Below, one piece after another: positions 20,754 to 44,834 of a stretch of DNA of 64,000 nucleotides. Origin of the DNA: Nitrosopumilus piranensis (GTDB taxonomy: Archaea; Thermoproteota; Nitrososphaeria; Nitrososphaerales; Nitrosopumilaceae); the NCBI RefSeq assembly GCF_000875775.1, contig NZ_CP010868.1, positions 1,189,707 to 1,253,706 on the forward strand, read 5' to 3'. Every line of letters starts with the position of its first letter. Positions within the stretch are counted from its first letter, which is position 1. The notes beneath the pieces are model-generated. The model did not search any database, was not told where the DNA came from, and was given only the letters and a program-made list of their open reading frames with translations. A program made the position numbers and the translations under genes.

Positions 20754-20999
20754 TTAAGGGTTTTCTTTTTTGAATATTCTTATTGCCTCTAAATGAGAGC
20801 AATTTGCTTTTAGTCCCTTTCCATGATGAAATTTGTAAAAATTTTTGAATCCAGGGCACTCACAGGTATCAGAAGTTACAAAATAAGATTTATCAGGATC
20901 AGAGGAAGATTTTATTTGAAATAAATCATCATCAATTTTCGATACGCCACCACTCTCAACTAATTTTTTGGCTTTTCGAATTGTGTTAGCACTCATCAT
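20754..20999 (-). CDS. SWIM zinc-finger protein
   Basis: An 81-residue protein with a SWIM finger: C46-x-C48 (TCECPGF), an 18-residue loop, then C67-x-H69 (NCSHLEAIRIF). SWIM domains bind DNA or protein and are found with SNF2 ATPases and recombination mediators; here the domain is alone. It converges with the ArsC-like gene two bases away. The first of two adjacent ATGs is taken as start. Confidence 0.8.
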   Translation of the reverse strand: MMSANTIRKAKKLVESGGVSKIDDDLFQIKSSSDPDKSYFVTSDTCECPGFKNFYKFHHGKGLKANCSHLEAIRIFKKENP

Positions 21000-21365: not shown

Positions 21366-21375
21366 ATCTTAAATA
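21366..21375 (+). promoter_or_regulatory. Promoter box of small RNA copy 1
   Basis: ATCTTAAATA, identical to the box at 44641-44650 and at the same distance (30 bases) from the conserved TGACGAGA. Confidence 0.6.
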
Positions 21376-21395: not shown

Positions 21396-21455
21396 TGACG
21401 AGAGGCCTGCTTTTCTGCCCAGAATATATGCCTAGAGTTCGTTTCACTCTCGTCA
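21396..21455 (+). ncRNA. Candidate structured small RNA, copy 1
   Basis: About 60 bases in a non-coding gap. The ends TGACGAGAG and CTCTCGTCA pair perfectly over nine bases. Inside, TTCTGC and AGAATA (21413-21426) form a small hairpin, and AGAGT/ACTCT could form an alternative stem near the 3' end. The 5' part matches the locus at 44671: same octamer, nine-base spacer, same hairpin arms. It is not a tRNA (no D or T arm geometry) and has no canonical C/D or H/ACA boxes. The flanks extend the pairing (TACAA with TTGTA). Likely a small RNA gene with its own promoter. Confidence 0.6.
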
Positions 21456-21516
21456 AATTGTACAAGTTAATTTTCAAATGATTATAAACTAATTTTCATA
21501 TCCGTGATTATTGAGT

Positions 21517-22566
21517 ATGAAAAGATATGTTGCCACACGTTTGGCAACAATGTTTGGGGTTCTAATGATTACATTGCTAATTACAATTGCATTAGTTGGC
21601 TCAAATATGGACACCATTCTCAAACAAGGAATAGTGTTTCAGGTAAGATCAGAGATAACTGAAAATCCAGCAATTGTTGAAAGTTTTTCATCTGTTGATG
21701 AGTTTGAGGAGTTTATACAAAATCAAATTGATCAAAGAACCAAAGTTTTAGGATTAGATGAACCATGGTATTCACCACAAAGAATAGGATTTACAATGTA
21801 CAAAATTTTGCTTTTAGATTTTGGTCATGCCACATTTCTTACTAGTGATGTAGGGTCATCAGATGTAAAAGATATCATATTTGAGAAACTTCCAAGAACG
21901 ATTCTTCTATTTACGACAGCCACCATAATAATTTCAATAATTGGGATTTTCTTAGGATCATTATCTGCAAGTAAAGTGGGTTCAATTATAGACAGAATTA
22001 CATCTAGTTTTGCAATTATTAGTTCTAGTTTTCCGGTATGGTGGATAGGAATGCTAATGATATTTCTATTTGCATTCACATATCAAATATTTCCAGCAAG
22101 AGCAACACCAGACATTCCTACAACAGATCCAGAATACATTGGTTCGTTGTTATACCACATGGCATTGCCACTAATTACAATTGTAATGATTGGATTTGGA
22201 TCATGGGCATATTTGGTAAGAAATTTCATGGTAGGAATTATGCAAGAAGATTTTATCATGGCAAAAAGGACAATTGGAATAAAACAAAAAAAGATAATAT
22301 ACATACACGCACTAAAAAATGCAGCACCCCCCATTGTTACAATTTTAGCTCTTAGTCTATCAGGTTCTCTAGGAGGGGCAATAATTACAGAAGCAGTATT
22401 TGATTGGCCCGGAATGGGCAGATTATATTTTGAGGCAATAACAGTTATGGACTTGCCTGTAATAATCGGAGCCACATACATCCTAACAGTATTTTTTCTA
22501 GTCAGTATATTTATTGCAGATTTACTGTATGGGTACTTTGATCCGAGGGTGAGAACTGGTCAATGA
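21517..22566 (+). CDS. ABC transporter permease, DppB-like
   Basis: A 349-residue inner-membrane permease of the dipeptide/oligopeptide/nickel class. It has an N-terminal span followed by a roughly 90-residue external region and five further spans; the permease (EAA) loop is seen at MAKRTIGIKQKKIIYIHALKNAAPP, and the EAVFDWPGMGRL segment is typical of DppB/OppB. The ATG at 21517 is preferred to the TTG two codons upstream. Its stop overlaps the start of the DppC-like gene by four bases. No ATPase or substrate-binding protein gene is nearby, so those parts must be elsewhere. Confidence 0.88.
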   Translation: MKRYVATRLATMFGVLMITLLITIALVGSNMDTILKQGIVFQVRSEITENPAIVESFSSVDEFEEFIQNQIDQRTKVLGLDEPWYSPQRIGFTMYKILLLDFGHATFLTSDVGSSDVKDIIFEKLPRTILLFTTATIIISIIGIFLGSLSASKVGSIIDRITSSFAIISSSFPVWWIGMLMIFLFAFTYQIFPARATPDIPTTDPEYIGSLLYHMALPLITIVMIGFGSWAYLVRNFMVGIMQEDFIMAKRTIGIKQKKIIYIHALKNAAPPIVTILALSLSGSLGGAIITEAVFDWPGMGRLYFEAITVMDLPVIIGATYILTVFFLVSIFIADLLYGYFDPRVRTGQ

Positions 22567-30735: not shown

Positions 30736-30799
30736 AACTTCAACAAAGGATTGAAATTCAATATAATCATATCCCCCAACAAGGAATACTGCAAAATAA

Positions 30800-30881
30800 C
30801 GCCGGGAAAGGGATTCGAACCCCTGCACGCTTGCACGTAGCCGTTTTCGAGACGGCCGCCTTACCACTTGGCTATCCCGGC
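30800..30881 (-). tRNA. tRNA-Ser (anticodon CGA)
   Basis: Read on the minus strand, the acceptor stem GCCGGGA pairs with TCCCGGC, the D arm is GCC...GGC, and the anticodon stem GCCGT/ACGGC carries the loop CTCGAAA with anticodon CGA. A long variable arm (GTGC/GCGTGC region) marks it as class II, as expected for Ser. The T arm is AGGGG-TTCGAAT-CCCTT and the discriminator base is G. CCA is not encoded and no intron is seen. Confidence 0.96.
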
Positions 30882-30921
30882 AATTAATCTAAGATTTTCT
30901 CCATAATAAAGCAAATCAGAA

Positions 30922-44291: not shown

Positions 44292-44411
44292 ATGGATCTT
44301 AACGAGTTACACCAAAGAGAGATAGATTCGCTTAGAGATGAAAATATCGAATTAAGAAAAAAGATAGAAGAACTAGAGGCCAAAGTCAAAGAATTAGAGA
44401 GCAAAAAATGA
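44292..44411 (+). CDS. Coiled-coil microprotein
   Basis: A 39-residue protein, almost purely a coiled coil (REIDSLRDENIELRKKIEEL), with heptads up to the C-terminus. The start of the following zinc-finger gene overlaps its stop (ATGA), so the two are translated together and may form a complex. Confidence 0.65.
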   Translation: MDLNELHQREIDSLRDENIELRKKIEELEAKVKELESKK

Positions 44412-44596
44412 ATTTCAACTGCGTATTCCCAGATTGCAATTACAAGCAAAACGATATTACAGAAGATGAATTTCTAAAACACTTGAAAGAAAACCACCAT
44501 GAGGAGATTATTAGAATTTCAAAAAAGGAAAACATACCAATCAAGATGGCAGAGATGATTACAATATCAAACTCCAAAGTATTCATTAATTCATAG
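44408..44596 (+). CDS. DUF1059-like zinc-finger protein
   Basis: A 62-residue protein with CVFPDCNY at the N-terminus and HLKENHHEE at about 25-33, giving a C-x4-C-H-x4-H finger of the DUF1059 type. The C-terminus is an unstructured or beta tail. It overlaps the coiled-coil gene by four bases. Function unknown. Confidence 0.65.
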   Translation: MNFNCVFPDCNYKQNDITEDEFLKHLKENHHEEIIRISKKENIPIKMAEMITISNSKVFINS

Positions 44597-44640
44597 ATTA
44601 GAATTTTCAACAAGTTAGCATTAGGTGATAATCAAGATCA

Positions 44641-44650
44641 ATCTTAAATA
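44641..44650 (+). promoter_or_regulatory. Promoter box of small RNA copy 2
   Basis: ATCTTAAATA, identical to 21366-21375 and also 30 bases before the conserved TGACGAGA. Confidence 0.6.
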
Positions 44651-44670
44651 TCAATTTGGCGTATAATTAG

Positions 44671-44772
44671 TGACGAGAAAACCGTTATTCTGCGTCGTAG
44701 AATAAAGGTATGGAAAGCATTTCATGTTAGGTTTGCGTCCTAGGAAAAACATGCTTTCCGTGTGTCTCGTTG
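44671..44772 (+). ncRNA. Candidate structured small RNA, copy 2
   Basis: About 100 bases in a non-coding gap. TGACGAGA (44671-44678) pairs with TCTCGTTG (44765-44772) using two G-U pairs, where copy 1 at 21396 uses Watson-Crick pairs, a compensated change. Then come nine bases, TTCTGC, five bases and AGAATA (hairpin 44688-44704), as in copy 1 apart from loop size. A long second hairpin, GGAAAGCAT with ATGCTTTCC, is unique to this copy. A T-rich stretch follows. Three-way junction fold predicted by eye. Confidence 0.6.
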
Positions 44773-44834
44773 TTTTCTAAAAATCCATTTTAATACAAAT
44801 AGTATTTTAATGCCAAAATAAAGAACAATTTGAA

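Follow-up and report, generated by a model that had tools for sequence, protein, structure and literature searches.

A predicted structured RNA gene of Nitrosopumilus piranensis and a likely related group of RNAs in the Nitrosopumilaceae

In the window analyzed here, a 64,000-nt stretch of the Nitrosopumilus piranensis genome, two loci 23 kb apart carry the same short boxes, which raises the question of whether they encode small RNAs and, if so, whether a single RNA is present in two copies. At the first locus, designated F1, ATCTTAAATA occupies positions 21366-21375 and is followed, 30 bases on, by TGACGAGA at 21396, nine bases (GGCCTGCTT), TTCTGC, CC and AGAATA, the ends being TGACGAGAG and CTCTCGTCA. 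At the second, designated F2, ATCTTAAATA at 44641-44650 precedes TGACGAGA at 44671, nine bases, TTCTGC, GTCGT and AGAATA (to 44704). The initial annotation had reported this ordered set at both loci, and we confirmed it, with spacings identical as far as TTCTGC, including the interval of exactly 30 bases. It had also judged the likeness to be beyond chance, a judgment borne out by the better-than-shuffled folding of both stretches, by homologues in relatives and by a TATA-like box upstream. The folding z-scores were -4.94 for the F1 stretch and -5.33 for the second copy, and 0/200 dinucleotide shuffles equaled the native stretch in each case. A looser promoter-plus-stem pattern matched three sites in the strain's own genome, namely F1, F2 and one within a 369-aa ORF, the last of which was taken as chance.

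Predicted structure of F1 and F2

The features of F1 in the window, all on the forward strand, are as follows.

21369-21375 (+): TATA box TTAAATA, 29 nt upstream of the ACGAG stem
21396-21455 (+): predicted F1 RNA gene body, from the match of the F1 model (R1) and the 39-copy alignment; the 3' end is uncertain and perhaps extends to about 21478, at a TTTT run
21396-21404 (+): 5' strand of P1, TGACGAGAG, with its partner at 21447-21455; P1 helix cells 92.3% paired in 39 copies
21409-21419 (+): GCTTTTCTGCC, the conserved 5' strand of the inner stem, invariant in the first 8 copies aligned
21420-21429 (+): hypervariable apical loop, here CAGAATATAT, differing in length and sequence between copies
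21430-21447 (+): conserved GCCTAGAGTTCGTTTCAC, in which the 3' strand of the inner stem (AGAG/AGAA) is joined to TTCGTTTCA, the near-invariant strand of the internal loop
21447-21455 (+): 3' strand of P1, CTCTCGTCA, from the alignment of F1 copies

F1 is laid out as a 60-nt hairpin, in which P1 (GACGAGAG/CTCTCGTC) leads through an internal loop to the inner stem and the hypervariable loop. Across 39 copies, 94.9% of cells were paired and 7 of 17 pairs changed on both sides. These both-side changes numbered 16 cells against a shuffled mean of 6.3, and 0/500 shuffles reached 16; ten of the 16 lie in the outermost pair, which is itself unpaired in 12/39 copies. P1 varies little, and three copies (L106, L107 and L110) break P1 pairs without compensation. 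In a distant copy, L109, the inner part is longer and the 3' segment ATTCGTTTCACTCTCGTC is unaltered. No ORF of at least 60 aa covers F1, and the longest stop-to-stop frame across it has 38 codons.

The family alignment redraws part of the hairpin proposed at the outset. The pairing of TTCTGC with AGAATA did not hold, as TTCTG with AGAA just after it occurs in 4/39 F1 copies; TTTCT with a downstream AGAA or AGAG was found in 34/39. The pairing of the ends was retained where TGACGAGAG meets CTCTCGTCA and forms P1, and lost where it had been extended by TACAA/TTGTA, an extension absent in relatives. With the usual archaeal TATA spacing, a transcript would begin within the first bases of P1 and would therefore exclude the 5' arm of this extension.

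The second locus has a larger predicted architecture, again on the forward strand.

44636-44650 (+): F2 promoter, with a GATCA element and the TATA box TTAAATA (44644-44650)
44670-44776 (+): F2 RNA gene body, a three-way junction of about 105 nt
44681-44709 (+): P2 hairpin with a near-invariant TCTGCGT(C/A)GTAGA tip, with covariation
44711-44761 (+): P3 hairpin (GGAAAGCAT/ATGCTTTCC), whose internal loop contains the conserved TCATGTTA
44765-44776 (+): 3' strand of P1 and the T-run TCTCGTTGTTTT; TTTT is common after P1

The F2 structure was set by hand on the 12 well-aligned copies of 20 and then extended by the model. In these 12 starting copies, 98.5% of cells were paired and 9 pairs changed on both sides. 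Among 60 copies, taken from 72 loci after leaving out 12 near-duplicates or poor scorers, 92.8% of cells were paired. Both-side changes affected 20 of 33 pairs in one or more copies and filled 126 cells against a shuffled mean of 34.1. P2 has 13 bp, and in P3, whose arms across the family are GGAAAAC/GTTTTCC enclosing TCATGTTA, 7 of 9 pairs showed both-side changes in the 60 copies. RNAalifold on the raw MAFFT alignment missed P3 because the loops were misaligned. Since the shuffles ignore relatedness and the larger alignments of both families were fitted to models, we regard the F2 fold as well supported and the F1 fold as moderately supported; covariation thus argues for the predicted F1 hairpin more weakly. 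A 62-aa ORF with a C2H2-like finger (by eye) lies just upstream of F2 (44408-44596, +) and is also present in a close relative (L017).

Taken as copies of one RNA, as had been suggested, the two loci do not agree, one being a 60-nt hairpin and the other a 105-nt three-way junction; judging from the alignments and the predicted folds, F1 and F2 are two distinct conserved RNA families. The proposed relation between them nevertheless stands in the promoter, the closing stem and short motifs, which both have in common.

Distribution, promoters and further members

The initial annotation had called for a search of related genomes, and more copies with covarying stems were found there. BLAST against 40 relatives matched the RNA body of copy 1 in 7 other genomes of the same genus (L002-L008), with four further genomes in the tally matched in the A+T-rich promoter part alone; copy 2 was found in 18 other genomes, in G010 by a 20-nt match only. 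Across 250 genomes of the family, R1 detected F1 in 39, with one copy each (38 in the window's genus and 1 in another), and detected none in 211, in a scan that loses weak matches. The F2 model, R2, matched 85 of the 250 genomes, in four genera and with up to four copies a genome, and R3, a model from 60 F2 copies, was run on 400 genomes of the order and at E 0.1 matched 91, every one of which belongs to the same family. Because the filters of all three scans were strict, a missing match says little about true absence. With its stronger covariation, wider spread and near-invariant loop motifs, F2 is the better supported of the two predicted RNAs. Genomes G153 and G182 hold four F2 copies each, and in G176 two copies share a contig (L246), separated by about 2 kb.

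Pattern searches gave a similar range. An exact-pattern scan of named genome contigs for the F2 core found it in Nitrosopumilus, Nitrosarchaeum and Nitrosotenuis, the best 80 of 81 matches being mostly labeled as these genera or as thaumarchaea. At least 11 matches in that scan were named bacterial or euryarchaeal; the three of these that were inspected (L238, L241 and L259) had no clamp, and two of the three we take to be gltX coding sequence. On viral contigs, the F1 pattern had 0 matches and the F2 core pattern had 5, of 32 or 53 nt compared with the usual 36-42 nt of F2. Short clamp families sought by pattern in 61 genomes were, beyond the F1 copies, no commoner than the reversed control. 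In 300 genomes of the order, matches to a stricter long-gap clamp pattern were accompanied by a TATA box at the correct spacing only in the same family, and all matches in other families lacked one. Within these searches, the predicted RNA group appears confined to one family, the Nitrosopumilaceae.

We fetched and inspected 19 places with weak R3 matches. Twelve resembled three-way-junction RNAs, mostly clamped by ACGAGGAA/TTCCTCGT and carrying a P3 of the type GGAAAAC..ACGA/TTCGT..GTTTTCC. Another four carried ACAAG clamps (L192-L195); this variant is shorter, and two of its copies are identical and lie in one genome (G133). L181 looks like a degenerate F2, and L196 and L198, which lack the clamp, were taken as chance. 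We use F3 for the further three-way-junction RNAs of Nitrosopumilaceae genomes, such as L183, L185, L191 and L212, most of which have ACGAGGAA clamps; promoter and stem are common to F3, F1 and F2.

In 35/37 F1 copies, 69/72 F2 copies and 15/15 further copies, the ACGAG stem is preceded at 22-40 nt by a TATA-like box. Two of the 39 F1 copies were left unscored because the stem motif was not recognized; of the 19 weak R3 places, 15 were used, L187 being at a contig start and L181, L196 and L198 having been dropped. All but two of the counted positions fall at 28-31 nt, and a TATA-like hexamer occurred at random sites in 12.7% at 22-40 nt and in 2.9% at 27-30 nt. The upstream consensus of 72 F2 copies is GATCA.t.TTAAATAt.ATTTT.acgTA. 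No such arrangement was seen in the 100 bases upstream of the RNase P and SRP RNA genes of this genome. At the other end, TTTT follows P1 within 25 nt in 35/39 F1, 52/70 F2 and 4/9 F3 copies scored, against a background of 24%.

F1 meets the F2 superfamily in promoter spacing and in the ACGAG/CTCGT clamp, and differs from it in forming one hairpin only, which leaves no space for P2, and no three-way junction. Four F1 copies were among the R3 matches listed, with scores of 15.8 to 21.5 bits and E-values between 0.017 and 0.4; the F1 copy of the window scored a weak 15.8 bits (E 0.4), and L073 scored 21.5 bits. One three-way-junction RNA, L212, carries F1's CCTAGAATTCGTT at the matching place in P3. 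Against one F1 copy, 17 of 18 nt aligned and 0/1000 shuffles of L212 equaled the score, whereas a score as good was obtained in 4/100 family-wise nulls. Because of these nulls, the kinship of F1 with the three-way-junction group is likely and not proven, and homology with F2 itself is unproven. In its layout, F1 looks like a reduced member of that group.

Genomic context and rival explanations

We consider it very probable that F1 is a real structured non-coding RNA gene, on the strength of its conservation, fold, promoter spacing, lack of a reading frame and lack of a fixed downstream gene. The original reading of the locus, as a short gene for a non-coding RNA that has a TATA promoter of its own and a 5' end near 21396, was upheld as a prediction.

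An ABC-transporter permease gene (21511-22566) begins 55 nt after F1 on the same strand of the window, and F1 might be a cis-acting leader or riboswitch of it. The neighborhood, consisting of an ArsC-like ORF, an ORF of 80-odd aa, F1 and an ABC permease (PF00528), is kept in the 8 loci examined, with a varying distance between F1 and the permease. However, in 7/7 other F1 loci examined, the permease lies about 540-785 nt further on, and in most of these an intervening ORF is called on the opposite strand; these are mechanical ORF calls, with the next gene on the opposite strand in several. F2 neighbors, in turn, differ freely between loci. A leader is unlikely because neither F1 nor F2 tracks one downstream gene and strand. 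The 81-aa ORF beside F1 in the 8 loci (20754-20999, - in the window) has a CECPGF..H..C.H pattern that is SWIM-like by eye, and had no Pfam match at E 0.01. A link to small zinc-ribbon proteins was considered and rejected: a gene for one lies within 700 nt of F2 in 27 of 64 scorable loci, which are not independent, and the corresponding figures were 13% of random window positions, 6/26 intergenic midpoints and 2/36 for F1. That the locus is instead a DNA inverted repeat, an operator or recombination site that is never transcribed, we hold to be very unlikely. The P1 arms do form an inverted repeat with a nearly invariant 3' arm, but the TATA box sits at a fixed one-sided spacing with the T-run on the opposite side, the interior is conserved and asymmetric, and changes are compensatory. 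The size of F1 and its succession of stem, internal loop and stem recall a single H/ACA hairpin, which would make it a very divergent modification-guide RNA of the H/ACA or C/D type. We found ACA within 8 nt after P1 in 0/39 F1, 0/72 F2 and 0/15 F3 copies, counting copies with an unrecognized P1 end as misses, and a C box (RTGATGA) together with a D box (CTGA) likewise in 0/39, 0/72 and 0/15. Rfam gave the tRNA alone at the gathering score in the window and, in permissive searches, 0 matches at E up to 1 (4 loci) and 0 at E up to 5 (10 loci); against this, a guide RNA is highly improbable. ARAGORN found in the window only tRNA-Ser (30799-30882) and no tRNA at F1. The reported lack of tRNA, C/D, H/ACA and SRP signatures was therefore upheld by ARAGORN, the box counts and the Rfam models. 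F1 as SRP RNA (RF01857) or RNase P RNA (RF00373) was rejected, both of which match elsewhere in this genome.

Two further explanations concern what F1 might bind. An antisense match (BLAST, 88% over 26 nt, E 0.009) at 560637-560662 of the strain's own genome (L015) lies near the start of a 522-codon frame, presumably NuoM-like by eye, and would make F1 an antisense regulator of complex I. Yet the pairing energy of -38.7 kcal/mol here compares with -12.1 to -31.8 kcal/mol in 13 other F1-bearing genomes, and 4 of 3650 windows taken across the 64 kb gave energies at least as low. With pairing that is not conserved and 26-nt complementarity at chance level, control of nuoM by F1 was rejected as extremely improbable. 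A more serious competitor, although still a somewhat unlikely one, is that F1 and the rest of the group sequester a common RNA- or DNA-binding protein by way of the clamp, with no target pairing. The ACGAG/CTCGT P1 is kept across F1, F2 and F3 while the loops differ, and because the clamps are shared, F1 strands might pair with F2 strands, which would also favor sequestration. Titration by P1 alone, however, requires none of the strong conservation of the inner loops within each family.

Proposed function and comparison with known RNAs

Our tentative preference, which we regard as possible, is that F1 is a structured sRNA acting in trans as part of a common RNP. In this model, a canonical archaeal TATA promoter would start the F1 transcript at about 21396, its ends would pair as the nine-base-pair clamp P1, and the inner stem UUCU/AGAR would close the hypervariable loop, with the near-invariant single-stranded UUCGUUUCA facing a variable strand in the internal loop. 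One protein common to all members would bind P1, and UUCGUUUCA may contact an RNA target or a second protein. Transcription, a single clamp-binding protein and action in trans are thus what we infer. Extended to the whole group, this would amount to a modular sRNA system of the Nitrosopumilaceae, with one promoter type (TTAAATA, with GATCA in F2), a constant clamp, one protein and exchangeable specificity loops, of which F1 would be a stripped-down member; this wider scheme is doubtful at present.

If true, it would represent a regulatory RNA family spanning a lineage of ammonia-oxidizing archaea, which rank among the ocean's most abundant organisms. Little literature on RNA regulation in these archaea was found, and a covarying group absent from Rfam, with a common promoter and clamp, offers concrete genes for knock-out or pull-down. 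The F1 and F2 models also allow an immediate search of existing metatranscriptomes. In the literature covered, which leaves out most subscription journals, we found no description of F1- or F2-type RNAs. Ocean metatranscriptome work has reportedly described putative small RNAs, which may include thaumarchaeal ones.

Among known RNAs, archaeal H/ACA and C/D guides resemble F1 in size range and in the layout of stem, internal loop and stem, whereas F1 lacks the ACA tail, the C and D boxes and any Rfam match. RNase P RNA and SRP RNA are, like F1, stand-alone structured archaeal RNA genes, and differ from it in size and fold. Tan1, a 229-nt ncRNA of no known function reported from marine group II Euryarchaeota (PMC5069720), is likewise a marine archaeal structured RNA; it differs from F1 and F2 in its length and its reported host group. 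A parallel in kind comes from archaeal intergenic trans-encoded sRNAs, which are like F1 short, stand-alone and intergenic, with a TATA promoter and a T-rich end; according to a review of them (PMC3432209), no thaumarchaeon had been examined for sRNAs up to 2012. By contrast with these sRNAs, the F1/F2 group shares a clamp and a covarying three-way-junction scaffold. Stand-alone archaeal sRNA genes are thus already known, and it is the predicted group sharing a scaffold that we rate as new.
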